IMG/VR virus record: IMGVR_UViG_3300025869_000014
Coordinates: 1 to 57,287 of that record
Direction: 5' to 3' (one strand)
Length of the DNA stretch: 57,287 nucleotides
Source: a virus
Notes under the pieces: model-generated
Told to the model about the DNA's origin: nothing
The model's database searches: none
What the model saw: only the letters and a program-made list of their open reading frames with translations
Made by a program: the position numbers and the translations under genes
Shown here: positions 7,347 to 41,103 of the stretch, one piece after another
Layout of the letters: every line of letters starts with the position of its first letter
Position numbering within the stretch: position 1 is the first letter of the stretch

Positions 7347-7684
7347 TACGTCACCACCGTCACATTGCCTATTTGGCCTTCAATATCTAATCCAATTGTT
7401 CTGCTGCCCAAAGCTGACACGCCGCCCCCAACTGGATTCCAAGCAAAATACTCTCTGCTTTCCTGCAAAGACTGATCTGGTCTTGGGTTTCTTAATGCTT
7501 GAGGGTCATCTAATCGAACCTTTCCTAGCTGCAACTGAGGTTGATCTTGATCTAAAACATCCTTGCCAACAAGCAAGCCTGTAGGTCTTTGATTAACAAT
7601 CTGCGGAACCAAATCTTTTTTTGGATACCTGAATCCGGTTCGATCACAATAACCAAAAGCATACTTTCCGCTAGCATAACTCAA
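7346..7684 (-). CDS. Small conserved virion-operon protein, GYCDRTGFRY type
   Basis: 112 residues with an N-terminal signature YAFGYCDRTGFRYPKKDLV and a 'TGLLVGKDVLDQDQPQ' stretch. I know this signature from marine phage structural operons without an assigned function. It overlaps the upstream connector gene by four bases. It is acidic/neutral, has no membrane segment, and carries one Cys, so no zinc site. Probably a connector accessory protein. Confidence 0.65.
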   Translation of the reverse strand: MSYASGKYAFGYCDRTGFRYPKKDLVPQIVNQRPTGLLVGKDVLDQDQPQLQLGKVRLDDPQALRNPRPDQSLQESREYFAWNPVGGGVSALGSRTIGLDIEGQIGNVTVVT

Positions 7685-8373
7685 AACTGATAACCTCCCG
7701 GAGAAACAAAAAGAGAAGCTTTTTCTCTAGCGGCATCAGAAGCTAAGTCCCATTGTTCTTGGTATTCTCCTTTTAACAAAGGCGCTCTTTCTGCTGCTTC
7801 TGGATACTTTATAGCCAAGTTATAAGCTAAACCAGCAACAAAGCACGGCAAGTATCTAGCAGGAATGTCCATGTTATTGCTTGCTGGCTTACCAGCATCT
7901 TCTATTCTTTCCATATAATAGTAGCCAAAAGTGTACGTCTCTTGACCATCTGGAGTAGGCCAGAGATTTATGACAACACCTGTCGGCGTTCTTTGAACGT
8001 AATACTCTAGCGGCTTAGACTGAGTAAGCTTATTAGATAGGTGAGAATATTGGCTTATAGATATCCTAGACATGCTTTGATCAAACTGACTTTGCACATC
8101 TCCGGCATCTGTTCTAAGAAAACCTTCGACAATATCAAATATCTTGCCATCTAATGTATAAGAGTTTGTGCCCGCAGTTAAAGCTTGCGTTCCAAAGTTA
8201 ACTGTCCACAAGTTTAAGCCACGGTTTTGCCACTCAAGCATTAGCAGATCAATGCTTCTTCTAGCAGTTTTGTAATCATAACCACTACGAAGTTCTAACC
8301 CAGCTCTTTCAAAAGCTTCTTCTATAGCTTCGCCAAGATCTAAGTTAAAAGAAAATGTGCCACTAGTAGCCAT
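7681..8373 (-). CDS. Probable head-tail connector / tail accessory factor (P22 gp4-like)
   Basis: 230 residues. The N-terminal helical segment (DLGEAIEEAFERAGLELRSG, residues about 11-30) followed by RRSIDLLMLEWQNRGLNLW is typical of P22 gp4-like tail accessory factors. A central beta region follows, then 'DIPARYLPCFVAGLAYNLAIKYPE', which recurs in these proteins. In P22 such proteins close the portal vertex after packaging. Spacing and overlap with the next gene (four bases) show the same operon. Confidence 0.6.
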   Translation of the reverse strand: MATSGTFSFNLDLGEAIEEAFERAGLELRSGYDYKTARRSIDLLMLEWQNRGLNLWTVNFGTQALTAGTNSYTLDGKIFDIVEGFLRTDAGDVQSQFDQSMSRISISQYSHLSNKLTQSKPLEYYVQRTPTGVVINLWPTPDGQETYTFGYYYMERIEDAGKPASNNMDIPARYLPCFVAGLAYNLAIKYPEAAERAPLLKGEYQEQWDLASDAAREKASLFVSPGGYQF

Positions 8374-8648
8374 TAAACAAAGCGACCCTTAGTTTTTCCG
8401 CGAACAGCTAACCCATCAATAGGCTTTGATCTTGTTCTTCCGCCTGCTTTCATTTTAGAAGCTTCTGAAACCATACGCTCAGCTTTTAACTTTTCTGTTT
8501 CTTTTAATTCCATAGCTTCTGCTTCTTTTTTTTTGTTCTTTTTTCTTTTTTCAGTAAGCATCGCAGGAATGATACCTGCGTAATTCATAAGTCCTTCACC
8601 TTTAATTAAAGAGGCTGCTGGCGAAATGTCTGTTAATTTTAAACCCAT
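8373..8648 (-). CDS. Small charged virion-operon protein
   Basis: 91 residues, with a Lys/Glu-rich helical stretch (residues 30-60, KRKKNKKKEAEAMELKETE) and a basic C-terminus (GGRTRSKPIDGLAVRGKTKG). A good ribosome site, GGAG, lies eight bases upstream of the ATG. Part of a run of four short basic proteins. Function unknown; the composition would suit binding nucleic acid or the acidic scaffold. Confidence 0.6.
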   Translation of the reverse strand: MGLKLTDISPAASLIKGEGLMNYAGIIPAMLTEKRKKNKKKEAEAMELKETEKLKAERMVSEASKMKAGGRTRSKPIDGLAVRGKTKGRFV

Positions 8649-8666
8649 TACTTTTCTCCAAATTTA

Positions 8667-8930
8667 TTACTTTCGATTAGACTTGGCCCCAGAACACTTC
8701 CATCGTTTTCTAGAAAGATTGTTTGGCGTATTTGGATCGTTTTGTTTTTTCTTAGGGAGTCTTTTCTTAATGCCCAAACTTCTTGCACAATAGCTGTCGC
8801 CTTTGCTTGTTCCCGGCTTAACTCTTGGGCCACCGCCTTTTGCTTTACCCGCTTGTCCGTAGCTAACTTTCTTTCCAGTCGAAGTTACCTTAACCTTTGC
8901 TTTTCCTTTTGCTGGCTTTCTAGTAGCCAT
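8667..8930 (-). CDS. Basic 87-aa protein with GDSYCARS motif
   Basis: Very Lys/Gly-rich. After a basic tail comes GDSYCARSLGIKKRLP and then DPNTPNNLSRKRWKCSG, two short blocks each with one Cys. I recognise these blocks from marine phages, where the function is unassigned. This frame was chosen over a competing 61-codon frame on the same strand because of these blocks and because it abuts the next gene exactly. Perhaps a packaged DNA-binding or structural peptide. Confidence 0.65.
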   Translation of the reverse strand: MATRKPAKGKAKVKVTSTGKKVSYGQAGKAKGGGPRVKPGTSKGDSYCARSLGIKKRLPKKKQNDPNTPNNLSRKRWKCSGAKSNRK

Positions 8931-9181
8931 TATCTATGCCTCGCAGTTTTCCTTGCTATCTTTTTTGGCTGTGGTGAATGCTGCTTACCTTTTTCTTTGT
9001 CAGACTTTTTCTTTCTAGAAGTAGCTTTATACTCTTTGTCGGTTAAAGCTTTTATAGCTTTCTTTGGCAGATAACGCTCACCCGTAGCCGTCTTACCTTG
9101 GGTAGAAGGTTTGCCAGACTTGGTTCCCCACTTTTCTTTTGTCCACTTTTTAAGGGACTTCTGAGGTTTCTTAAGAGCCAT
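8930..9181 (-). CDS. Basic 83-aa conserved phage protein
   Basis: About one residue in four is Lys. Recognisable blocks are LKKWTKEKWGTKSGKPS, TGERYLPKKAIKALTDKEY and HSPQPKKIARKTARHR. The family recurs in marine phages; its function is not known to me. It shares one base with each neighbour, so the three basic genes are translated as a block. Capsid-internal DNA condensation is possible but not shown. Confidence 0.65.
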   Translation of the reverse strand: MALKKPQKSLKKWTKEKWGTKSGKPSTQGKTATGERYLPKKAIKALTDKEYKATSRKKKSDKEKGKQHSPQPKKIARKTARHR

Positions 9182-9390
9182 TAGTCTTTATAACCTCCGC
9201 CAGCAGCCTTGTAACGTTTTGCTAACATCTGAGCTTTTCTAGCAGACCACTGGCCGCTTGATCCACCTTTAGATCCAGATTTAATCTGATTAAACAATCG
9301 CTTTCTTAAAGCAGGCTTGGTGTAGTTGCCCGCTTCATTAACACGAGACTTAGCTTTTTTCTTAGCTGGCGCTTTCTTTTTAGCTGCCAT
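9181..9390 (-). CDS. Basic 69-aa conserved phage protein (GQWSARKAQ type)
   Basis: Starts with a Lys/Ala tail (AAKKKAPAKKKAKSR) reminiscent of histone H1 tails, followed by LRKRLFNQIKSGSKGG and GQWSARKAQMLAKRYKAAGG. The last block is a signature seen in many marine phages and bacteria. Role unknown; neighbours suggest a virion or packaging-associated protein. Confidence 0.65.
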   Translation of the reverse strand: MAAKKKAPAKKKAKSRVNEAGNYTKPALRKRLFNQIKSGSKGGSSGQWSARKAQMLAKRYKAAGGGYKD

Positions 9391-20434: not shown

Positions 20435-20875
20435 ATGTCAACGAGAGCCACTTACAAATTCGTCAGTGATTGGGCGGGCACTCACACTGCTTACATTCAT
20501 CATGACGGTTATCCGATAGGTGCCGCCGGATATTTGAGCAACGATGCGGTTATAAATAAATACAACAGAGATGTAATGACTAATCCAATCATTGCACCGA
20601 TAACCAATATCAACACTTTCATTAGGGCAAACGAGCAGGCTGAGATGACTCAGGATCACGACTCACATGCCGACACTGACTACCGTTACACCATTGCGGG
20701 AACGTACATCATCGCTGAGGAGCGAGTTAAGAAAGATGTCCTTGTTGATTTGGCTGACGTTGATTTTTCTGACTACGGAAGAGAAACATTTAAGACTTTT
20801 TGGGAGGGTGACATCGAAGATTTTTTAATCATTTTCTGCCCTCACGCCGACGATTTGAAATTCATTAACAAATAA
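20435..20875 (+). CDS. Conserved phage protein with YIHHDGYP motif, unknown
   Basis: 146 residues beginning MSTRATYKF and containing 'AYIHHDGYPIGAAGYLS', a signature (YxHHDGYPxGAA) known from many phages and mobile elements without a function. First gene of the rightward operon; AAGGAGC eight bases before the ATG. It is acidic and cytoplasmic, with no membrane segment. As first early gene it may act on host functions, which is inference. Confidence 0.75.
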   Translation: MSTRATYKFVSDWAGTHTAYIHHDGYPIGAAGYLSNDAVINKYNRDVMTNPIIAPITNINTFIRANEQAEMTQDHDSHADTDYRYTIAGTYIIAEERVKKDVLVDLADVDFSDYGRETFKTFWEGDIEDFLIIFCPHADDLKFINK

Positions 20876-20887
20876 GGAAAACAACTA

Positions 20888-21187
20888 ATGGCTACATATA
20901 CAGGCAAACAGGAAATTAGGCGTTCAATCATATCTGAAGCGATGCAGCGGATCATCGGTCAACTTAGCTTGGATCAGCTAAAAGCAATCTATGAGGCTGA
21001 GGAAAATGCATTGCGGGCATCTCAACAGCTAGGCATTAGCGCACAAATAGCAGCGCAGGATGCAGCGAGAACAGTCACTAGAGAAATATTTGCAGGGCTG
21101 TCAGATTACTCAATCGACCGAATGGAACAGGATATTAAAGTATCTGCCCGCGACCTCAATAAAATTAACAAACTATCTGGAGAGTAA
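20888..21187 (+). CDS. Small helical early protein, unknown
   Basis: 99 residues, almost entirely helix-predicted (LSLDQLKAIYEAEENALRAS). AAGGAAA precedes the start; 12 bp behind the first gene. No recognised domain. Probably co-transcribed with the MoxR module. Confidence 0.65.
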   Translation: MATYTGKQEIRRSIISEAMQRIIGQLSLDQLKAIYEAEENALRASQQLGISAQIAAQDAARTVTREIFAGLSDYSIDRMEQDIKVSARDLNKINKLSGE

Positions 21188-21189
21188 GA

Positions 21190-21291
21190 ATGTTATTAAT
21201 TCACCTATGCCTTATCGGATTTGGAATTTGCCTAGGAGGGTCACTGACTGCCCTGTTCCTACTCGACAGGCTGACGGACAACGATGATTAA
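21190..21291 (+). CDS. 33-aa single-pass membrane peptide
   Basis: ATG at 21190, GGAG seven bases upstream, TAA at 21289. Residues 2-25 form one hydrophobic helix (LLIHLCLIGFGICLGG, then SLTALFLL), followed by an acidic tail DRLTDNDD. It starts two bases after the stop of the 99-aa gene. Size and layout resemble phage small membrane inhibitors, but no target is known. Confidence 0.5.
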   Translation: MLLIHLCLIGFGICLGGSLTALFLLDRLTDNDD

Positions 21292-21304
21292 CTGCACTGA
21301 TGAT

Positions 21305-21356
21305 CGGGGCCGGATACCCCGTGAAAGCCCTCAGGGGCTATGCAGAATCCACTGCA
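21305..21356 (+). promoter_or_regulatory. Leader with three consecutive hairpins upstream of the MoxR gene
   Basis: Three inverted repeats in 52 bases: CGGGG(21305-21309)/CCCCG(21317-21321), AGCCC(21326-21330)/GGGCT(21335-21339), TGCAG(21341-21345)/CTGCA(21352-21356). The ribosome site AGGAG at 21363-21367 follows directly. A translational or attenuation control element is likely; none has a U-run. Confidence 0.5.
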
Positions 21357-21375
21357 ATTACTAGGAGTAATTTAT

Positions 21376-22527
21376 ATGTTTAGCAACATTGAAACAGTCA
21401 CACTTAACGAGGCATCTCAGATTATCGAGGCACTATTGCCTGTCAGCAACAAGCCCGTGTTCCTGCATGGGCCCTTTGGCATTGGCAAGTCTGCCATCAT
21501 TAAAGCACTGGCCGTGAGGCTGAATGAAACCACTGGTCAAAACTGGGGCTTGATCGAGATTCGCGCCAGCCAGATAGACAGCACCGACACGCGAGGCATT
21601 CCCGATACTGAGGACAGACGTACATTTTTTGCAACGCCAGACTGGCTACCCCGCGTCGAGCGTGATGGGCAATTTGGCATCGTCTTTCTAGATGAATTGC
21701 TACTTGGCTCAGAGTCCACCCAGCGAGCGTTGTATCAGTTTCTTGAAGGGAAGCTGGGAGACTATGAGTTACCTATTGGGTGGCGAATAATTGCGGCGAG
21801 TAACCGCCCTTGCGATGGCGCTGGTGTACGCGGTCGGCATGACGCTGCGTTGATGACGCGCTTTGAAACTCAACTCAACGTGACCGCTGACCCAGATGAA
21901 TGGAAAGAATACGCGGTACGGGCACCTGTCGATCATCGCGTTGCTGGGCTTCGCAAGAAACTTGGGCTCGATGAAATGCCAGAAGGCTTTCACCCGTTCG
22001 TCGTTGCATTTATGGATTGGAAAGGCAAGCCAACTTTGAAGGGCGATGGCACGATTGATCAGGCTGGTCTGTTACTCGAATACCCTGACGGAGGCATACC
22101 AAAGGGCCATACGGCAGCTGCTCAACCCAGAGGCTGGCACTCAGTTAGCAACATTCTCTATTCATTGCTGCCACATAACCTATTGCAAGCTCCAATAGCT
22201 GGCGCAGTGGGCGTTGGCCCTGCAGCTACATTTATGGGGTTCCTGCAGATTCTAAATAATCTACCGGATGCCAATCTGATCCTCAGGAATCCAGACGATG
22301 CGGATGTGCCGTCAGAGAACGAGTTAGGTACTCGATATGCAATAGCGACCACACTAGCGCAGCGAGTGACCAGCAAGAATATCGACAACGCCGTGCGGTA
22401 CATCAAGCGCATGCATGAGGAATTGCTGTCGGTATTCTTTTTGATAGCGACTAATCGTGACCCCAATCTGCAAGCAACACAGGCTTACATTAATTTCAAA
22501 ATCGAAACTCAATCAACAGTTATCTAA
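21376..22527 (+). CDS. MoxR-type AAA+ ATPase
   Basis: 383 residues from ATG 21376, chosen over 21340 because AGGAG lies eight bases before it. Walker A GPFGIGKS (residues 32-39), Walker B 'GIVFLDE' (D106, E107), sensor-1 'RIIAASNRP', and the arginine-finger region 'ALMTRFETQLNVTAD' mark the MoxR/RavA/CbbQ branch of AAA+ proteins. These work as hexameric remodelling chaperones with a VWA-domain partner, usually encoded nearby; that partner is two genes downstream here. Cytoplasmic, with no membrane segment. The substrate is unknown. Confidence 0.85.
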   Translation: MFSNIETVTLNEASQIIEALLPVSNKPVFLHGPFGIGKSAIIKALAVRLNETTGQNWGLIEIRASQIDSTDTRGIPDTEDRRTFFATPDWLPRVERDGQFGIVFLDELLLGSESTQRALYQFLEGKLGDYELPIGWRIIAASNRPCDGAGVRGRHDAALMTRFETQLNVTADPDEWKEYAVRAPVDHRVAGLRKKLGLDEMPEGFHPFVVAFMDWKGKPTLKGDGTIDQAGLLLEYPDGGIPKGHTAAAQPRGWHSVSNILYSLLPHNLLQAPIAGAVGVGPAATFMGFLQILNNLPDANLILRNPDDADVPSENELGTRYAIATTLAQRVTSKNIDNAVRYIKRMHEELLSVFFLIATNRDPNLQATQAYINFKIETQSTVI

Positions 22528-22539
22528 CGGAGATATGTC

Positions 22540-23421
22540 ATGGATAAGTTACAAAACAACGCACTAATCGTGAAGGTTGAATGCACCAAGTGGAGCAACA
22601 CCATCGAAGATAGAAACCTCAGTGTCGAGATCGTCAGCGACAAGAATGCTGAGGCTCGATCACTGAGGGTCATGAAGCCACTCGCCAAAGGGCCAGTGAT
22701 CAAGGAACTCAACAAGCTCATTGGTCAGATTGGCAATCAGGTTGTCCGTCGATGGTGCGTTCCGTGGGACACGGGCAAACACCTTATCGTGGTCGATAAC
22801 CTGAAAAAATTTGAAGATGACCTGAAGGCTAAAAATGACAGGCTCGAAGAGCTTAAGATCGAGTTACGCAACGAATGGCTGAACATCGTCCGCGATGATC
22901 AACTTAAACTGGGCGATGCCTTCAAGGCTAGTGACTACCCTAACGTCGAAGACATCGTTGATAAGTACAGCATCAAGTACAGCCTGTTCCCGATTACGTC
23001 TGGCGATGATGTGCCTGCTCAACTGAGGCTCCCAGCAGAGCGGATCAGACAGATCGAGGCTGATGTCGAAGCTGATGCAAACGAGCGCGTGGAAGCAGGC
23101 ATGAAGGCTATTCACAAGCGTGTCACTAACGTGCTTAACACTTTCATCGATGGCATGGATCGTCACGGCATCAAGGCTCAAGGACAGCAGCGAGCGTCGA
23201 AGTTTAGTGACACAACAGTCACTGCAATCGAGGAACTCGCGGAGACACTACCGCATATCAACCTGACCAATGACCCAGCGTTGACTGAGGTAGCAAACGA
23301 CTTGCTATCTAGAATGCGCGACCTCGATCCGCAGAAACTGCGCGATGACCCCGCTGAACGTAAGAACGCTGCAAAAACTGCTCGCGACATTGCCTCTAAA
23401 CTCAACGGATTATTTGATTAA
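22540..23421 (+). CDS. Middle gene of the MoxR-VWA module, unknown
   Basis: 293 residues. Largely helical and charged, with likely coiled coil at 85-130 (DDLKAKNDRLEELKIELRNE) and 170-210 (RIRQIEADVEADANERVEAG). GGAGA precedes the start, 12 bp after the ATPase. No known domain seen. Placed between ATPase and VWA genes, it may be an adaptor or substrate; phages with MoxR-VWA pairs often have such a middle gene in my experience. Confidence 0.75.
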   Translation: MDKLQNNALIVKVECTKWSNTIEDRNLSVEIVSDKNAEARSLRVMKPLAKGPVIKELNKLIGQIGNQVVRRWCVPWDTGKHLIVVDNLKKFEDDLKAKNDRLEELKIELRNEWLNIVRDDQLKLGDAFKASDYPNVEDIVDKYSIKYSLFPITSGDDVPAQLRLPAERIRQIEADVEADANERVEAGMKAIHKRVTNVLNTFIDGMDRHGIKAQGQQRASKFSDTTVTAIEELAETLPHINLTNDPALTEVANDLLSRMRDLDPQKLRDDPAERKNAAKTARDIASKLNGLFD

Positions 23422-23431
23422 GGACACGATC

Positions 23432-24670
23432 ATGACTGTAAAAATAAATAAAGCTAAGAGCCGGATGGTAACTGATCATCCCTTCTATGCCTGCCTCCTG
23501 TATAGGCTCAAGATGGTTGCTTCAGAAGACTTCGATACGATGGCTACTGACGGTAAGAGTATTTTCTACAACCCCGCGTGGGTTGATACGCTGCCTGTCG
23601 CTCAGATCACTGGCGTAATTGCTCACGAGTGCGCCCACGTTGGTCACGGCCATCACTTGAGGAAGGGTGGTCGTAACCACGAGCTATGGAATGTGGCATG
23701 CGACTACGCGATAAACGACACGCTAATTAAGGCAGGGTTTAAGCTGCCTGAAGGTGGACTATTTGATGCCAAATACTCAGGCTGGGCTGCCGAGAAAATA
23801 TATGTGGCGCTTGAAAAAGAGCAGCGTAAAAAGCAACAACAGCAACAGGATGGCGAGCAGGGCGATGATCAGGGTGGTGACTCTCAGGGTCAGTCTACTG
23901 GCAATGCCCCTGCCAAGACTCCGGAAAAAGAATCAGGCTGCAGCTGGGGCGAGGTACTCGACGCTGTCGATGAGTCTGGCGATGCACTTGATGAGGCTGG
24001 CAAGGCCGCTGAACAGCGAGCAATATCTGCCACGCTAAATGAGGCTGAACTTGTCGAGCGCAAGGCTGGCAACACATCCGGCGGTCACGCTAGAGCAATG
24101 ATAGAAACAACCAAGGGTGACATTCAACCGTGGAATGAAATTCTATGCGATGCATTGGTTGACACTATCGTGGTGGATCAGACTTTCGCGAGACCAAACA
24201 GAAGGCTGCATCACAAGGGCATCCGCATGCCAACTGATGTGACCCGACCTACGGGTGAACTGGTCATCGTTGTCGATACGTCTTGTTCATTGGATGATCA
24301 TGAGTTATCGATCATTGGTCATCATGTCGATGACATCGTCGATGCGATTGACCCCACCGGCGTGATCGTGATCTATTGCGACCACACTTTGAACGGCGAG
24401 CCTATCCACTTTGATGCAGGCGAAGAGGTCAAGCTTAGCATTCACGGTGGCGGCGGCACTGCATTCAACCCGCCTTTCAACTGGTGCGCGAGAAACGACA
24501 TCGAACCGCAGGCATTACTCTACTTCACTGATGGTGAGGCTGACGTTGGCCCTAACGCATGGTATGGCAGAGACTTTGAGATGCCTGACTACCCTGTGTT
24601 CTGGATCACCAATCACACTGATCCAGAGTTCTCCGGCTGCGAAGAGTTCGGAGAGATAGTTTACATCTAA
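23432..24670 (+). CDS. Metallopeptidase-like / VWA protein (DUF2201 type)
   Basis: 412 residues from ATG 23432 (AAGGA seven bases upstream; an in-frame 23345 start overlaps the upstream gene). The N-terminal domain carries HECAH (residues 65-69), then 'GHHLRKGGRNHELWNVACDY', the zinc-peptidase-like signature of DUF2201_N. A Gln/Asp/Gly-rich linker (about 130-170) leads to a VWA-like domain with a MIDAS-like DTSCS (282-286), 'GGGGTAFNPPFNW' and 'LLYFTDGEADVGP'. VWA proteins of this type partner MoxR ATPases. Whether HECAH is an active protease is unknown. Confidence 0.85.
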   Translation: MTVKINKAKSRMVTDHPFYACLLYRLKMVASEDFDTMATDGKSIFYNPAWVDTLPVAQITGVIAHECAHVGHGHHLRKGGRNHELWNVACDYAINDTLIKAGFKLPEGGLFDAKYSGWAAEKIYVALEKEQRKKQQQQQDGEQGDDQGGDSQGQSTGNAPAKTPEKESGCSWGEVLDAVDESGDALDEAGKAAEQRAISATLNEAELVERKAGNTSGGHARAMIETTKGDIQPWNEILCDALVDTIVVDQTFARPNRRLHHKGIRMPTDVTRPTGELVIVVDTSCSLDDHELSIIGHHVDDIVDAIDPTGVIVIYCDHTLNGEPIHFDAGEEVKLSIHGGGGTAFNPPFNWCARNDIEPQALLYFTDGEADVGPNAWYGRDFEMPDYPVFWITNHTDPEFSGCEEFGEIVYI

Positions 24671-24677
24671 CTTAGCA

Positions 24678-24691
24678 GGGGCTACGGCCCC
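24678..24691 (+). promoter_or_regulatory. Hairpin before the RHH gene
   Basis: GGGGC, loop TACG, GCCCC in the 34-bp gap between the VWA stop and the GTG start of the next gene, ending two bases before its AAAGGAG ribosome site. No U-run, so translational control or mRNA processing is more likely than termination. Confidence 0.4.
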
Positions 24692-24704
24692 AAAGGAGAG
24701 CGTA

Positions 24705-24926
24705 GTGAGTACAACAGGCAGACCAAGCAGCGGATTAACGAAGAGTGAAATAGCCGCCAAGAGTAGGTTGCAAAACGATGTTAAGAATATATCTATCAAT
24801 GGCGAGTTACTACAGAGGTTTAGTCGATACAGAGACGAAGAGTCCAAGCGACTAGGCTATAAGTTAACTGTTAAGCAATTCTTAGCTGTCTTGCTTAACA
24901 AATGGGAGAATACAAATCCAAGCTAA
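24705..24926 (+). CDS. Ribbon-helix-helix DNA-binding protein
   Basis: 73 residues starting at GTG 24705, with AAAGGAG seven bases before. Residues 28-70 fit a ribbon-helix-helix: strand 'NISINGELLQRF', helix 'SRYRDEESKRLG', then 'LTVKQFLAVLLNKW'. The N-terminus is Ser/Lys-rich. Such proteins bind short palindromes as dimers of dimers. As last gene of the MoxR operon it could be its repressor; palindromes in 19948-20434 are candidate targets. Confidence 0.6.
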   Translation: MSTTGRPSSGLTKSEIAAKSRLQNDVKNISINGELLQRFSRYRDEESKRLGYKLTVKQFLAVLLNKWENTNPS

Positions 24927-33228: not shown

Positions 33229-33356
33229 GCTACCCCAAAGACGAGGGCTGGAAGAACCTAAGCTACCCGAAAGAAGAACTTACTCTGGAAGAAATAAAGA
33301 AGATGATGCAGAAAAAAGAAGACAGAGAGAATGCAAAGAAGAGGCCGCTTAATTAG
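33225..33356 (+). CDS. 43-aa charged protein, end of rightward operon
   Basis: ATG 33225 overlaps the previous stop. Sequence starts MSYPKDEGWKNLSYPKEELT, then a Lys/Glu helix. Its stop lies 8 bp inside the converging 2584-aa gene, and there is no terminator between them. Confidence 0.45.
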   Translation: MSYPKDEGWKNLSYPKEELTLEEIKKMMQKKEDRENAKKRPLN

Positions 33357-36300
33357 TGCGCCCAACTTTCTTGTCATAGGATTTGTTAAACCTATTATAG
33401 ACAGAGTTCATTCTATCGTAGACTTCTTCTTCCGCTTTACCCATCTTCAAAGCATCCTGTGGCGACCTTGAAGCAATAGCTTTAATTCTTTTGCGTTGCT
33501 CTCTTAATTTTCTTAGCTGATCTTCTGCTCTTTCTAAATCCCTAAGCGTTCTTAATTTTTGCGCGTTATTCTTTCTAAAGTTAATACGGTCAGCGCCTCG
33601 CAACACATCCAGCCTAGCTTCTAACTGCTCAAGCTTAATCTTTCTTTCGTAGAAATCTCCCATGCTAACTCTTTCGTCGGGCTCGCCTTTGATTCTACGA
33701 AGGAACGGTATCTCTCTTGCCTTAAGGTCTTCTCCCTTCTGCCATTTTTCAAACGCATCAAGATTACGCATGCCAAATGTTCCGGCACCGCCCAATGCAA
33801 ACTCAGCTAGATGCTCTAGTACATCTGGCGAAACATCCAGTGCCCCAGACTGTTGCTCATTACCACCTATCAAAGAGTTGGAGAGCTTAGCCATCCACTT
33901 GAACGGTGTTCGCGTTGTAGACATTGACATAGAAGACTCTGGTAACTGAGTTCCTGTCGGGAAGTTCTCCCTATATATAGGAGAGCCGAAGAAGTTTTCG
34001 TTCTTTGCTATCTCTATAAAAGGCTGAGCTATTGTCGGCGCAGGAGAAGAGAATCCTATCGGGGAGAACGATCCTAGGAATGCACTGGTCACATTAGACG
34101 TTGCCTTAAGTGGAGATATGTGGCCGTTGCTCATCTCAAAAACATTCTGCCCAAGAGAATGAAACACGTTGTATCCGTATGGCAGCGGGATGGTGTAATG
34201 ATTCTTCCCGTCATCGGCCATGATCACTATGTTTCTTTCTTTAACGTAGTCTGGTATCTCGGAGTAGTAAGACCTTCCCGTCTCTGGGTTCTCTTCGCTC
34301 TCTTCTTCTGCTCTTAAGGCAGACAAAGCGCCGAACATGATCAAAGATGTAACTGCCCCCTGCTTAACGCGACTAGCTTCAGAGCTAAGCGGATTCATAT
34401 TAGGCCCGAACAATCCTCTTGCGAAGTTAGCTGTGCCCTGAACACTAGCATTGAAGAACAAATAGAGAGAGTTAACCAAGTCTCCGGCGTTGCCCTTTCG
34501 ATTAAAGTTGATTGTCAAATTCTTAGCGAGTGACGCAGCTTGAGCCAAAGCTTCGGGCCTTGGCACCCCAGCATTAAGCAGCTCATCACGCGATGCTTTG
34601 AACGTGGCTAGTCGCACAGCGTTTTCAACAGAGGCATTGCTGTCTTCAACAAACTTCATGACAGACTGATATCTTCGCTGGAAGTTTCCTTTGAAGGTTC
34701 CGTTTGCCATATCAATCATAGATTGAATAGTCTTGGTTTGATCTTCGGGGGGTCTTGAGTGGAACCAGTCAGCTTTTGCCCCAGACTCCATGTACTCTCT
34801 GACATCTGCCTGATCCACAGGATCTATGCCGGATAAGTTTCCTACAAATGTTCCGTCTTTAACTGAGAAGTTTCTTGCTGCTTTATAAAAAACGCCCATC
34901 GAAGGAATGACATCTTTTATAACCTTAGCTACAAGCTTCTGATCTTTCGCTTTACCTTGAGACATATCCTGTTCGCCAAGGATATTAAAGATAGCTGTCT
35001 GCACATCACGAGAGAAGTTGCCAATAACAAACTCGGGGTTAAGCGATGTGTTCATCATGGATAGGAATCTATTAACAACACCAAACTTCTGAATAAGATT
35101 GTCTGCTGTGCCGCTGTCCATGCCAAGAATGGCATCCCTTAATCTTTTATCTGCAAGCTCAACGTAAACTTGCTGACCATCTAGCTTCACGCCAATTAAA
35201 TCTTTATCAAAACCGGGGCTAAGGTTGTCTCTCTTTAGCACTATCTTCTGTATGTAATCCTTTCTGTTAGCGTCCGGCGGTATCTCTGAGAACGTCTGGC
35301 CCTGCAAGTCTTTGTCGTTTCCAACGTAGGTAAACTTCTTCTCAAAAGCTCGCATGTACCTAGGGTCTTCAGGAGATATGACCCTCCAAAACTCCGCATC
35401 CGGACTGCTCTTTACCAAGTTAACTAGGCGCTCACCGAACTGTTTATTCTTTGTGCCCCTAGCCATTGACCGCTCAGCATTTAACAGAACATGTCCTAGT
35501 GGTGACTGAGCAGCAGACTCCCTGCCCATAGCTCGCAGAAATTCTTTGCCTTTTGTACTGATGCTACTGCCTATAATCAGGTTCTCAGCGTAGTCATCTT
35601 CTATGTCTTTGCCTCTCAATGGCGCGTAGTATTTGTAGGCACTCCTGATTCCTTCAGCGGAGTCTTTGTCTATCAGTCCACCTTCAATCGTTCCGTCTAT
35701 GGTTTCATTGACTATCTTATCAACGTCCGCAGCAACGCTTTGAAGTTTCTTTCCTCTCCCGTTACCACCTGACCATGTGCCCGTGGAACTATTCCAGTCC
35801 ATGTCGTAACGCTCTTTCATCTTGCGCTTGACAAAACTATTGGTGAGAGCTTGTCCGGTCTTAAGCTTTCCTGATCCGGGATTTAGTTCTACGTCTCTTT
35901 GTGAATCCCGAATGGCAACCTTTTCATTCCGCTCAATAGCGTGTCTAAGAATAAGAAACTCATCGACTTCATCTAGACTGTAACCAGAGTCAGCAATCTT
36001 CTTTGCCAAGGGTTTCTTTCTTTCATCTTCAAACCGCCGCATCTTGTTGCCAAGAATGCCTGAAATACTTTCCTCTCCAATGTAAGCAGACTCTGTTGCC
36101 TTGAGAGGGCTGAGGCCAAGACTGGCCCTGTATTTATTTATCTCTCGCTCTGCATCCTTGAGTCCGGTGAACTTATCAGCAGCCCAGAAGACAAACTTAT
36201 CCTTAAAAGAATAACCTTTTGTTTGAAAACTGAATGGCTCGCCAAGTATTTCTTGGTCAATAATTGATTGCTGAACTTCTGGGGAGTTGTCCAGTGAGTT

Positions 36301-39300
36301 CATTATGGTGCTGGGAGGATTCCTTTCTGAAAACTCTGCTGCTTTTTGTTCTGCTGCTTTTAATTCGTCTTTAGATTCTACTCTGGCCCTAGATTCTGTG
36401 ACAGGATCTTCATACTCTAGACCTTCTGTCCATGTCCAGTCCGGCATAAGACCTATTTTTTGCTCGGCAAATACGGTGTCTTCTATCTTTGCCGTTCTGT
36501 TGTTCTCAGCATAAGGCCCATAATTTAACCAACTATTTTGACCCCTTGTTTCAGAAGTAAGAGCATGCAAGGCTGGGCCAGTAAACAATTTAGCATGAGC
36601 CTGCCATGCGTTCTCTTCCCCTCTGGCTCGGAACCCACTTCCTTCTATGCCGTGCCCGAAAGCATCATGCACAGCGCGAAACAAATCGTTGGCAGTGACA
36701 AGTTTTCTATCTCCACTCTGATCCTTCCACCTCAGCCCCGTATCTTCTAGCATCGGATTGTTTTCTATTTCAGAATCAGTGATCCCTTCTGTGCCATAAC
36801 CATCATAAGTTCCATAAACTGCCATGCGTTTGGTAGCGCGAAGGTCTCGCATAGCGTTGAAAGGATTGCCGTCATAAGGGTCTGACTCAGAGTCATAGAA
36901 AGTAAACTCATAACCAGCATCTGTCAGAGCCTTATATTGGTTTTTAGTTTGCCTTATAAGATCTTTATATGCTTTCTTTACAGCAGGATTTTGCGGGTCG
37001 TTACGCATCTCATCATACGCTTTAGCCAGCCTCTCGCCACGATCCTTTGGGACTTTTACATAGGATCTTTGTTTTCTTTCAGGGAGTCCGTAGTCTTCTG
37101 CGTATTCTTCTGCGATAGCAACGATTTCTGGGATTGGCCCTGTCGCCCCTTGAATAGCTGGCGCACCTTCAAGCGGCGTAAAGCTTCTGCTCTGTAACCG
37201 TCTTCCTCTGTCTCTATTTCGTTGCCCCAATCTTCTTGCTTGCTCATCAGAAACTCCTCCTGTGGTATCTTCTTGTATTGTATCATCTGTTCCCTGTTTT
37301 GAGAACATAATATCATCCGCGTATTCGTACCCTTGCGGAACACCTGATGGATCGTACTGAGCATGTACACCTTTGATATCTGATGGCTTGAACATAGCGA
37401 TGCCAGTTGCCATGTCCTGTATGCTATTCTCATAGTCAACGTAAGAATCATACCCCGCGCTTCGGACAAAAGGAGACAAGGCTTCCAGCTCTGCGAAGCC
37501 AACATCTGAGGGTCTTTGTGTAATGCTACCTACAATTTGTTGAAGCTGCTTTCTTCTACCATTTATTATCGAATCTCTAGCTTCGGTGTCTGAAGCAGGG
37601 TAACCCATCTGCTCCATCATCTTATCTGCGTAGCTCTTGTAGACAGGACTAGATAAGTTATCCACTTCTCTAGACAAAGCTTGAAGCTCACCTCCGGAAT
37701 CTTTTTCTCTGGAAATTCTGCCCGGATCAAAAGAGTTTCCTTGTCTTAAATAGACGGGGTATACAGTGCCCGCGTCTGCCGCATTCTCTGGATCAGAGAA
37801 GTCAGATCGATCCGGCGCAAACATATTTGCAAACTCTGGATTGACAGTAAAATGACCAGCTATGATGTCATTAGTGGCTGAGTCAAAGCTACCTGCAAGA
37901 TTGCTCCTGAACTTCTTGATGTTGGTTTTACCAGTGCCATGATAATAGGTAGTGTTGGTATCGAATCCCTGCTCTGCTGCCCTATCTCTTTGCCTCGATG
38001 CAGATATCTCTTCCTCTTCTGTCTCCGGCGTAAGTACTTTGACATCTCTCGATAGACCTATGCCTCTGTCCGGCACTGCGCCTAATCTTTTCTCCGTAGC
38101 TTGAAGCGTTCTTATCCGATCTCTTTCTCTTGAACCTATCTCTCCTTTCTCAAGGCGATTTAATACATCATCAAAGCTCTGGAACCCTGTGCCACTTAAT
38201 GCATTACCTGTCTTCTCGAAAAAACTATACATCCTTTCAACAAGACTCTTGGGCTTGCCAGTAATAAGCTTCTTATCTTTTCTTCCGTACCTGATAATCT
38301 CAGCAACGGCTTCTTCCATCTGTCCGACAGCTGATAGGTCGGGGTATCTTTCCTGAGCGTCATTGAAAAAAGTAACGTTACCCCTGCCCGGAAATATTTT
38401 TTTCCTTGTCAAGTTTTCTAGCAGCCGCCATTCTTTTTCTTTCCACAGGTCAAGGTTTCTAACGCCGTGAACAATCTCGTGATCTAATATTTCAGTGAGA
38501 GCTTCTCTTCTTGCTTCCGGAGTTTGGTCTCTTGCCCCCTGCTTAATCCTATCAAGCGCAAGGAATACCGTATTCGATCTGGGCCTGTAATATCCTTCAG
38601 TCTCTTGACGGATATCCTCCCCTTCCTTTCCGGCAAGTATCAGCTCTCCCTTTCTAGTTACTGGCCCAATCTTTAACTCATCAAGAACCCTGACACGGAT
38701 GTCATCTAGACCCATACCCTTGAGGTCTTCATTAAGCAGCTTCTCAAGATTGGCCGCATCTTCTGAAACGGTCTCAGCGTATGGTTTTATTTCCGGCTCA
38801 AAGCGTTCTGGCGCGGGCAATGTTGTGCGCGTAACGACTTCATCTTTGTTGTTGATTAAGCCAGTCTTCTTGATCGCCTTCTGCAAATCAGAAGCAACCT
38901 TCCTTGTTCTTTTGGCTGATCCAATGTCTCCGATCTGGCTCTCGATGTTCTCTACAGTGCCGTCACCTGTCTCAGTAACGTACTGAACAGCGGCGTTGTA
39001 TTGTTTTCTTGTGTATGTCTTCGGCCTGAAGTCCGGCAAGGATGCTGGCTGAGCAACAACAGGAAGCTTTCTTAATTCCTGAACGAGATACATGCGCTGA
39101 GAAGGGCTCATGCTTTCTACGTTGGTTTCGTTAACAATCTTTTCTAATAGATAACCTACCTCAGGAGAATCAACACTTGATGCAATGTTCTTTTCTTGAA
39201 GAACAGAAGACACTTCTTCTAGGGTTCTTTTTTGATCTTGATACTCTTGCCTGCTAGCCGCTAGGCGAGCGCCAACAGAGCCAAAGTTCTCCGTTGTTTC

Positions 39301-41103
39301 CGTCATGTCTGGAGAGCTAACCCCTACCAGCACATCAAATACATTTGAGTATTTATCGCCCAATACTTGTTTGGCTTCTTCAAGCGTAAACTCTTGAACC
39401 TCAGGTAGACCTTTCTTTCTTCGATCAAAGTTAATTTCTTGAGCGGCTGTTAGGTTTGAAAGATCTCGATAAAGTTTTTCACCCTTATCTGAGTACGGTG
39501 GGACTCCATACTGATTGGTATGAAGTTGATCTATTGTTTGATTCTCTTGGTAAGGAGACTTAGGAGACTGAGTTGTGCCTGCAGCTTCGTTAAGTACCGC
39601 TGAAGTAACAGTGAAACGCTTTGGCCTGTTTAGTTTTTGACCAATAACATACAAGCTTTCTGATTGCTCAGGGGTGTAGGCTTCCGGGGCAAGATCAAGG
39701 GAGTCTATTACGGAATCGTTTACTCTTCTGTTGATCAGCTCTTGATTAAGATTTGCCATCAAATGGATAGCAGATTCTCTTTCCTGCTCAGGCTGTCCGA
39801 ACTGCTCACCTGTCTCAGAATGAACTACCTTAAAGACAGAACCTCCCGGCAATTTATCTTCGACAATGTCAAACTTGCCTGACTCTGGGAAAGCTCCGTC
39901 TTTTTGTATGCCGCTTCTTGCTATCTGACTAGCGTACTCCGCAGCCCTGTCAATCATGTTTACTTGTCGGCCAAGATACGGCTGTGCTGGGTCGAACTCA
40001 AACTGCTCGCCTTCAAAAGTTTCAGTGCCATACAAGGGATCTGGAACGACTACCGAATCTCTTTCTACTTTTAGCTTGGCAGCTTCTGCCATGTCATAGA
40101 GGTCTTGGCTTGCCTTTTCATCTTCGTCTCTAAATGCTTGCTCTCTTTCTTGCTCAGCATCTAGAACCATTTTAGATCTGCGCCGAGTTACACCGCTGGT
40201 AATTGCATCTAGCAGGGCACCAGAGCCAGCGCCTACAGTGAAGTCGTCCCATAGAGATTCTGTATAGTTAACGTTGTCAGAATAAACGCCGTCTTCAATA
40301 GCGTTCTGCAACAAGCTTGCGGCTACTTCCTGAGTTCCTTCAACAGCGCCCTCAGCCACCGCGCTACTAACAGCATTAAAAGCCTCTTCGTTTTTCCTTG
40401 GGTTCTTAAACCTTGCTATCTTTTTTAAAACGTTCAGGGGCGCAATGGCTTCTGATGCCCCAACAAAACCACCAAGAGCTATAGCTAAATCTTCTTGTCC
40501 CGCAGATACTTCTTCTCCTCTGGCTCTGGCAGCAGCTACCCTATCAGCTTGCTCTGAAGCTCCGGCACCAACGCCTGCTCCAGTTGCGCCAACCGTGGCC
40601 GCAATTCTCTGCCCTCTTGCTGCTGCACCAAGACCTTTAGCTCCAAGACCAAAAGCACCGCCCGGAACAAAGAACGAACCTATAGAGCCTAGACCTTCGC
40701 TAAGCTTTACTAGATAGTTATCTTTGTATGCATCGCCAAGACCAAGGCTTTCATTGAGAGCCTGCTTGCCCTCATTCGCTAGCCGAATAAGTTCGTTTTC
40801 ATCGCCGCTATCTATTAGATCATCAAGACCTATCAGGTCTGTGCCTACATCAGCAAGTTCTGCTAGACCAGCGCCAGCAGAAAGAAGGCCAGAACCAAAT
40901 CCTCTGACCAATCCTTTTCCCATCTCAACAGGAACACCTGCGTAATAGTCAACGCCTTTGGGCTGATTAAAACCCATTTGCCTGTGATACTCCTCAAGAT
41001 CTAAGTTTGAGTAGTATTTATTGTACAGACCATCAACAACTTCTTCGTCAGTAAGATCCTTATACTGAGGATATTTTTCTCTGAAAACAGTTAGACCGCT
41101 CAT
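33349..41103 (-). CDS. Giant polyvalent-type internal virion protein (2584 aa)
   Basis: Recognisable in order: an N-terminal Gly-rich, partly hydrophobic zone (residues about 60-300); a metallopeptidase-like HEIVH (875-879); an ART-like block with YYHGTG near 1053-1058 and GHFTVNPEFA, typical of polyvalent-protein ADP-ribosyltransferases; the block 'LTSETRGQNSWLNYG' near 1518; and, near 2205-2330, 'YLFFNASVQGTANFARGLF' with a 'IPLPYGYNVFHSLGQNVF' stretch, like LPD38-type domains. Such proteins are packed in the head and injected to protect phage DNA or modify host proteins; known from the polyvalent-protein literature. Whether the ART and protease are active is not shown. Last gene of the late arm. 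Confidence 0.8.
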   Translation of the reverse strand: MSGLTVFREKYPQYKDLTDEEVVDGLYNKYYSNLDLEEYHRQMGFNQPKGVDYYAGVPVEMGKGLVRGFGSGLLSAGAGLAELADVGTDLIGLDDLIDSGDENELIRLANEGKQALNESLGLGDAYKDNYLVKLSEGLGSIGSFFVPGGAFGLGAKGLGAAARGQRIAATVGATGAGVGAGASEQADRVAAARARGEEVSAGQEDLAIALGGFVGASEAIAPLNVLKKIARFKNPRKNEEAFNAVSSAVAEGAVEGTQEVAASLLQNAIEDGVYSDNVNYTESLWDDFTVGAGSGALLDAITSGVTRRRSKMVLDAEQEREQAFRDEDEKASQDLYDMAEAAKLKVERDSVVVPDPLYGTETFEGEQFEFDPAQPYLGRQVNMIDRAAEYASQIARSGIQKDGAFPESGKFDIVEDKLPGGSVFKVVHSETGEQFGQPEQERESAIHLMANLNQELINRRVNDSVIDSLDLAPEAYTPEQSESLYVIGQKLNRPKRFTVTSAVLNEAAGTTQSPKSPYQENQTIDQLHTNQYGVPPYSDKGEKLYRDLSNLTAAQEINFDRRKKGLPEVQEFTLEEAKQVLGDKYSNVFDVLVGVSSPDMTETTENFGSVGARLAASRQEYQDQKRTLEEVSSVLQEKNIASSVDSPEVGYLLEKIVNETNVESMSPSQRMYLVQELRKLPVVAQPASLPDFRPKTYTRKQYNAAVQYVTETGDGTVENIESQIGDIGSAKRTRKVASDLQKAIKKTGLINNKDEVVTRTTLPAPERFEPEIKPYAETVSEDAANLEKLLNEDLKGMGLDDIRVRVLDELKIGPVTRKGELILAGKEGEDIRQETEGYYRPRSNTVFLALDRIKQGARDQTPEARREALTEILDHEIVHGVRNLDLWKEKEWRLLENLTRKKIFPGRGNVTFFNDAQERYPDLSAVGQMEEAVAEIIRYGRKDKKLITGKPKSLVERMYSFFEKTGNALSGTGFQSFDDVLNRLEKGEIGSRERDRIRTLQATEKRLGAVPDRGIGLSRDVKVLTPETEEEEISASRQRDRAAEQGFDTNTTYYHGTGKTNIKKFRSNLAGSFDSATNDIIAGHFTVNPEFANMFAPDRSDFSDPENAADAGTVYPVYLRQGNSFDPGRISREKDSGGELQALSREVDNLSSPVYKSYADKMMEQMGYPASDTEARDSIINGRRKQLQQIVGSITQRPSDVGFAELEALSPFVRSAGYDSYVDYENSIQDMATGIAMFKPSDIKGVHAQYDPSGVPQGYEYADDIMFSKQGTDDTIQEDTTGGVSDEQARRLGQRNRDRGRRLQSRSFTPLEGAPAIQGATGPIPEIVAIAEEYAEDYGLPERKQRSYVKVPKDRGERLAKAYDEMRNDPQNPAVKKAYKDLIRQTKNQYKALTDAGYEFTFYDSESDPYDGNPFNAMRDLRATKRMAVYGTYDGYGTEGITDSEIENNPMLEDTGLRWKDQSGDRKLVTANDLFRAVHDAFGHGIEGSGFRARGEENAWQAHAKLFTGPALHALTSETRGQNSWLNYGPYAENNRTAKIEDTVFAEQKIGLMPDWTWTEGLEYEDPVTESRARVESKDELKAAEQKAAEFSERNPPSTIMNSLDNSPEVQQSIIDQEILGEPFSFQTKGYSFKDKFVFWAADKFTGLKDAEREINKYRASLGLSPLKATESAYIGEESISGILGNKMRRFEDERKKPLAKKIADSGYSLDEVDEFLILRHAIERNEKVAIRDSQRDVELNPGSGKLKTGQALTNSFVKRKMKERYDMDWNSSTGTWSGGNGRGKKLQSVAADVDKIVNETIDGTIEGGLIDKDSAEGIRSAYKYYAPLRGKDIEDDYAENLIIGSSISTKGKEFLRAMGRESAAQSPLGHVLLNAERSMARGTKNKQFGERLVNLVKSSPDAEFWRVISPEDPRYMRAFEKKFTYVGNDKDLQGQTFSEIPPDANRKDYIQKIVLKRDNLSPGFDKDLIGVKLDGQQVYVELADKRLRDAILGMDSGTADNLIQKFGVVNRFLSMMNTSLNPEFVIGNFSRDVQTAIFNILGEQDMSQGKAKDQKLVAKVIKDVIPSMGVFYKAARNFSVKDGTFVGNLSGIDPVDQADVREYMESGAKADWFHSRPPEDQTKTIQSMIDMANGTFKGNFQRRYQSVMKFVEDSNASVENAVRLATFKASRDELLNAGVPRPEALAQAASLAKNLTINFNRKGNAGDLVNSLYLFFNASVQGTANFARGLFGPNMNPLSSEASRVKQGAVTSLIMFGALSALRAEEESEENPETGRSYYSEIPDYVKERNIVIMADDGKNHYTIPLPYGYNVFHSLGQNVFEMSNGHISPLKATSNVTSAFLGSFSPIGFSSPAPTIAQPFIEIAKNENFFGSPIYRENFPTGTQLPESSMSMSTTRTPFKWMAKLSNSLIGGNEQQSGALDVSPDVLEHLAEFALGGAGTFGMRNLDAFEKWQKGEDLKAREIPFLRRIKGEPDERVSMGDFYERKIKLEQLEARLDVLRGADRINFRKNNAQKLRTLRDLERAEDQLRKLREQRKRIKAIASRSPQDALKMGKAEEEVYDRMNSVYNRFNKSYDKKVGRTN

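Follow-up and report, generated by a model that had tools for sequence, protein, structure and literature searches.

The 57,287-base virus record IMGVR_UViG_3300025869_000014 of IMG/VR, the whole of which was analysed and is here termed the window, carries three adjacent genes on its + strand that encode a MoxR-type AAA+ ATPase (positions 21376-22527, 383 residues), a helical DUF3150-like protein (22540-23421, 293 residues) and a zincin-VWA protein, i.e. a zincin-type metallopeptidase followed by a linker and a VWA domain (23432-24670, 412 residues). The gene for the DUF3150-like protein is a constant third partner of the MoxR/zincin-VWA pair in the loci examined that have room for the whole module. 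We consider it probable that the three genes specify one AAA+ remodelling machine centred on a metal-ion-dependent adhesion site (MIDAS), which is used by phages and plasmids generally and has a third subunit and an optional peptidase; this reading is based on the linkage of the genes, the domains that they encode, the conservation of residues at the catalytic and metal sites, matches of fold and presence on plasmids. An earlier note on this DNA, made from the sequence alone, had proposed the module as an undescribed system, which is right only in part. The MoxR/zincin-VWA pair is already known from hundreds of phages and a plasmid MoxR plus VWA cluster has been on record since 2009, but the DUF3150 partner is unmentioned in the literature searched; the constant DUF3150-like partner of a known pair, together with a parallel three-gene version on plasmids, is what is new here.

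Composition of the module

The three open reading frames lie where the earlier note had placed them; they are intact, on the same strand and separated by gaps of only 12 and 10 bases, and the genes are real and operonic. The assignment of the first to a MoxR ATPase is borne out by its match to phrog_1297 (6e-62, residues 2-374 of 383), the family of N4 gp24. It has the Walker A sequence GPFGIGKS (G35, G37 and K38), the Walker B pair D106-E107, a sensor residue N143, R162 and P251-R252, and in a 19-row alignment G35, G37, K38, D106, N143, R162, P251 and R252 are invariant. The best matches of its profile in the PDB include Midasin (1.7e-26) and also NorQ (1.5e-4).

The zincin-VWA protein, which belongs to the N4 gp25 family (phrog_1314, 3e-82), is matched by Pfam DUF2201_N (4e-48) and DUF2201 (3e-14), in agreement with the metallopeptidase/VWA description given previously. 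HECAH is found at residues 65-69, followed by the conserved N87-x-A89-x-D91, and DTSCS at 282-286 forms part of a full MIDAS comprising D282, S284, S286, T343 and D367. All five MIDAS residues, along with H65, E66, H69 and D91, are invariant in a 20-row alignment, and among 35 homologues DxSxS is present in every one and HExxH in 33. A Foldseek search with the VWA model gave as best PDB matches the VWA domain of NorD, from the NorQD system, and the MDN1 MIDAS domain bound to the NLE1 UBL domain. The label 'HNH endonuclease' attached to phrog_1314, which numerous phage records have taken over, is incorrect here; the protein has no HNH domain match.

The middle protein had been described as of coiled-coil type. 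It is indeed predicted to be mostly helical (AlphaFold model with a mean predicted local distance difference test score, pLDDT, of 80 and a predicted template modelling score of 0.49), and its identity goes beyond that description. By tblastn it matches a cyanophage protein annotated as DUF3150 (3e-7) as well as plasmid homologues, hhalign against Pfam-DUF3150 proteins gives 85.5% probability (E 5.6e-6) over 140 columns of the N-terminal half, and the best viral Foldseek match of its model is a 'DUF3150 domain-containing protein' (E 1.6e-15). Neither PHROGs nor NCBIfam contains a match, Pfam returns only sub-threshold noise, and profile and fold searches found no relative of solved structure in the PDB. 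The window protein has no match to PF11348, and the nearest relative that does have one, from a plasmid (L009), scores 22.1 bits against a gathering cut-off of 24.9, because of which we use the name DUF3150-like; similarity of sequence and of predicted fold marks the protein as a distant relative of DUF3150. Two other viral contigs have a gene of about 300 codons immediately 5' of MoxR (L050, 4564-5478; L051, 4299-5333), whose products are similar in their start regions (NPIRGR..D.RP...RR) and have no PHROG match.

Linkage of the three genes in viruses

A search with a diverged relative of the middle gene returned 40 viral contigs, and overall 43 viral loci with the middle gene were considered, one of them from a published cyanophage; 27 of these leave enough sequence on both sides to hold the complete module, whereas each of the other 16 is cut short by the end of its contig. 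All three genes lie on one strand in 27 of the 27 contigs having room on both sides. Three gene orders were observed, namely MoxR-middle-VWA (the window and the cyanophage MinM2), middle-MoxR-VWA (contig L004) and MoxR-VWA-middle (25 contigs, which are mutually related and so do not represent 25 independent events). That the linkage persists whichever of the three orders is used, and on unrelated plasmids as well, strongly supports a joint function, and the middle gene was never seen without the pair among the loci examined. The earlier note had made its proposal depend on the middle gene and the motifs being conserved in related phages, and both are. When the gain of DUF3150 is mapped on trees, the three-gene label requires about four changes; the deep nodes are weakly resolved, and a single origin is also conceivable. 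An apparent DUF3150-VWA fusion on contigs L011 and L021 was considered as proof of contact between the two proteins and set aside, since only the first ~100 DUF3150 residues and pieces of the VWA protein are present, resembling a decayed deletion product.

The pair is much more widespread, with tblastn finding the MoxR gene in 408 phage records and the zincin-VWA gene in 570, in both cases mostly from N4-like, Vibrio and jumbo phages.

Plasmids, bacteria and a parallel version

The triad is also present on proteobacterial plasmids, from Rhodovastum, Variovorax, Cupriavidus, Burkholderia, Robbsia and Simplicispira (in the last of which a few genes separate MoxR from the others), and on contigs of environmental metagenome-assembled genomes (MAGs), one from a Bryobacterales and one from a Pseudomonadales bacterium. 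Among the bacterial genomes drawn, the window type was found in 1 of 369 and Pfam DUF3150 in 2 of 185.

A parallel version combines an AAA protein of NorQ/CbbQ type (AAA_5 plus CbbQ_C), Pfam DUF3150 and a CobT-like VWA protein. All three parts occur in one bacterial genome (L024), and DUF3150 with the CobT-like VWA in another (L025). In the IncC plasmid pNDM102337 the order is AAA, a gene of unknown function, ssb, bet, exo, DUF3150 and VWA, and in the IncT plasmid Rts1 it is ssb, recT, exo, MoxR, DUF3150 and VWA, the last being interrupted by IS2 (L083, 19030-22192). The proximity of ssb and bet/recT/exo to the module in both plasmids supports the proposed machine, as do the exonuclease and Sak annealing genes that follow the module in the window phage. 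DUF3150 relatives were found in 1,173 plasmid records, 977 of which are predicted to be conjugative. The three CobT-like VWA proteins compared (L038, the IncC plasmid, 7459-9255; L024, 9541-11598; L025, 10055-12277) have HExxH near the N terminus and then an invariant N..ED.R.E, a pattern that makes a zincin domain in this region possible.

The MoxR and VWA members of the plasmid cluster were reported in 2009 as conserved in R478, Rts1, SXT and R391, with pCAR1 also having the cluster (PMC2642839). A deletion screen of Rts1 removed every gene except repA, and no gene of the module is named in the text examined (PMC10838148). We considered the screen as evidence that the module is dispensable for conjugation; it says little in this respect because IS2 already interrupts the Rts1 VWA gene. 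Plasmids of Sphaerotilus (L031) and Synechocystis (pSYSA, L033) have modules consisting of the pair only, close to DUF262 genes.

Relation to known systems

The products of N4 genes 24 (AAA) and 25 (vWFA) were given as of unknown function in work on an N4-like roseophage (PMC2784036), a MoxR chaperonin and its second subunit were noted in Bacillus phage 0305phi8-36 in 2007 (PMC2147016), and a MoxR plus metallopeptidase-vWA pair of jumbo phages was proposed to act in virion assembly (Iyer et al. 2021, PMC7824862). N4 gp24/gp25 and the jumbo-phage pair are of the same kind as the pair in the window, in that both families (phrog_1297 and phrog_1314) are present, adjacent or nearly so, with the same motifs; they differ in having no detectable DUF3150-like gene and, for the jumbo phages, in being embedded among structural genes. 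We found no N4 data in the CRISPRi-ART paper. The IncC/IncT clusters share with the window a location on mobile DNA and the three-part plan of an AAA ring protein, DUF3150 and a protein with HExxH and a MIDAS, but their AAA protein has CbbQ_C, their VWA protein is CobT-like and longer, and their DUF3150 is of the canonical Pfam type.

NorQD likewise comprises an AAA hexamer and a VWA partner, which are linked to the window proteins by an AAA profile match and a VWA fold match, but it acts on nitric oxide reductase; CbbQ_C, expected of NorQD and CbbQO activases, is absent from the window MoxR in Pfam searches, and NorD is not known to have a DUF2201 zincin. Midasin (Rea1), related by its AAA profile and its MIDAS fold, differs in being a single giant eukaryotic protein of ribosome assembly, where it pulls a MIDAS-bound partner off a complex. 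RavA-ViaA of Escherichia coli also pairs a MoxR ATPase with a VWA protein, but lacks DUF3150, and the window proteins gave no NCBIfam match to the RavA or ViaA family models. The window module does not belong to the MoxR-vWA-beta-propeller ternary systems, as bpMoxR scores below its cut-off in the window MoxR and no beta-propeller partner was seen.

Proposed mechanism and alternative explanations

In the machine we propose, MoxR would be the motor and form an AAA+ ring, and the zincin-VWA protein would be an adaptor that holds a substrate or partner by binding one of its acidic residues at the MIDAS metal site, in the manner of NorQD and Midasin, such that the ring could pull the substrate apart. 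The N-terminal zincin domain may then be an optional cutter of the substrate presented, and the helical DUF3150-like protein a third subunit that most probably serves as a tether or as an adaptor for the substrate. The formation of a complex, its order of action and proteolysis are steps that we infer by analogy with these systems. The target would be a protein complex that both phages and plasmids meet, most probably either in the host or on DNA that is entering the cell or being replicated; a shared task directed at DNA or host is favoured because plasmids, which make no virions, also carry the module and because it has an early-side position in the phage.

Several observations weigh against this reading. 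Many phages have the pair without a detectable third gene, including G7C, At2, RaK2 and 121Q, as do plasmids of Synechocystis, Rhodococcus and Sphaerotilus, implying that DUF3150 is not always needed. HExxH is absent from the homologues on a Variovorax plasmid and in a bacterial MAG, implying that peptidase activity is not essential everywhere, and the VWA model has a mean pLDDT of just 69. Further, the jumbo phages RaK2 and 121Q have the pair among structural genes, and the virion proteome of phAPEC6 includes gp265c with six peptides, a protein identified as MoxR by its mass match to 121Q (49.52 vs 49.51 kDa). The last two observations, together with the proposal of Iyer et al., are what commend a virion-assembly chaperone, with the module helping structural proteins to fold and to mature by proteolysis at a late stage of infection. 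The phAPEC6 list, however, lacks the VWA partner while including thymidylate synthase, RecA and SSB. In G7C the pair, whose annotation relates it to N4 gp24 and gp25, lies in the region of RNAP2, dCTP deaminase and thymidylate synthase, and in the window and contigs L004 and L076 the module is on the strand opposite the leftward terminase; in related contigs genes for a nuclease and DNA polymerase lie downstream of it. A purely virion-assembly role is thus weakened by its early-side position and by its occurrence on plasmids, conjugative ones included, and we regard it as unlikely.

One special case of the remodelling machine, in which the target is named, is a role in counter-defence or host takeover: early in infection, or once a plasmid has entered, the module would disassemble or cleave a complex that serves the host in defence or regulation. 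This role accords with the early-side position in the family of the window phage, with a module common to phages and conjugative plasmids and rare in the sampled bacterial genomes, and with the action of MoxR-vWA systems in conflicts elsewhere (Kaur et al. 2020, PMC7159879); on the other hand, PADLOC gave no match, and neither a defence target nor a phenotype appears in the literature examined, so that we hold this version to be possible but on balance doubtful. The same conflict systems and the DUF262-linked plasmid pairs might instead suggest phage-borne defence or superinfection exclusion, which we judge very unlikely given that bpMoxR scores 17.3 bits in the window MoxR against a Pfam cut-off of 27, that no VMAP, effector or beta-propeller partner was seen and that PADLOC was without a match. 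Metal insertion as an auxiliary metabolic function, through a CobST-like cobalt or magnesium chelatase, is hardly credible; the AAA+/VWA pairing does resemble CobST and there are weak matches to phrog_249 ('porphyrin biosynthesis') and TIGR02442, but the latter reaches 18.5 bits with a cut-off of 779, which does not place the window protein in CobST, a zincin domain is present, and no CobN/ChlH catalytic subunit was found among the scanned neighbours.

The remodelling machine can tentatively be extended to a hitherto unrecognised three-component AAA+ class found throughout mobile elements (AAA ring, DUF3150 and zincin-VWA), in two versions, on phages and multidrug-resistance plasmids, which would dismantle and cleave a barrier of the host or a nucleoprotein complex that any DNA entering the cell encounters; we would put this no higher than a speculative possibility. 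With the third partner and the parallel set on IncC-type resistance plasmids, the question extends beyond virion assembly to a task common to phages and plasmids, for which N4 in E. coli K-12 and purified proteins are tractable laboratory systems.

The phage record and the rightward block

The record has the genes of a tailed phage (large terminase, portal, primase-helicase, exonuclease, a Sak-type annealing protein and large virion proteins), with the exonuclease and Sak genes downstream of the module, and no close DNA relative was found among phage records. The layout suggests that the rightward block containing the module is expressed early; a search for promoter-like sites gave none above chance. 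Outside the conserved module, the block begins with genes for a 146-residue protein (20435-20875, +; best PHROG match weak, 0.04) and a 99-residue protein (20888-21187, +; no significant family match), both of which had been listed as unknown and remain without a convincing family. The predicted membrane peptide can be read at 21191-21292 (+), just 5' of the module, as a 33-residue hydrophobic single helix, MLLIHLCLIGFGICLGGSLTALFLLDRLTDNDD. A hairpin leader also claimed in the earlier note did not hold up, the fold being no better than those of shuffled sequences (z = -1.08; 24 of 200 equally good) and Rfam giving no match. The block continues 3' of the module with a GTG-initiated gene for a small protein of 73 residues (24705-24926, +), for which a ribbon-helix-helix fold is plausible by eye only and finds no support in Pfam, PHROGs or NCBIfam. 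Elsewhere in the window, positions 33349-41103 encode a 2584-residue protein whose C-terminal ~950 residues resemble very large uncharacterised phage proteins (phrog_14770 and phrog_616).

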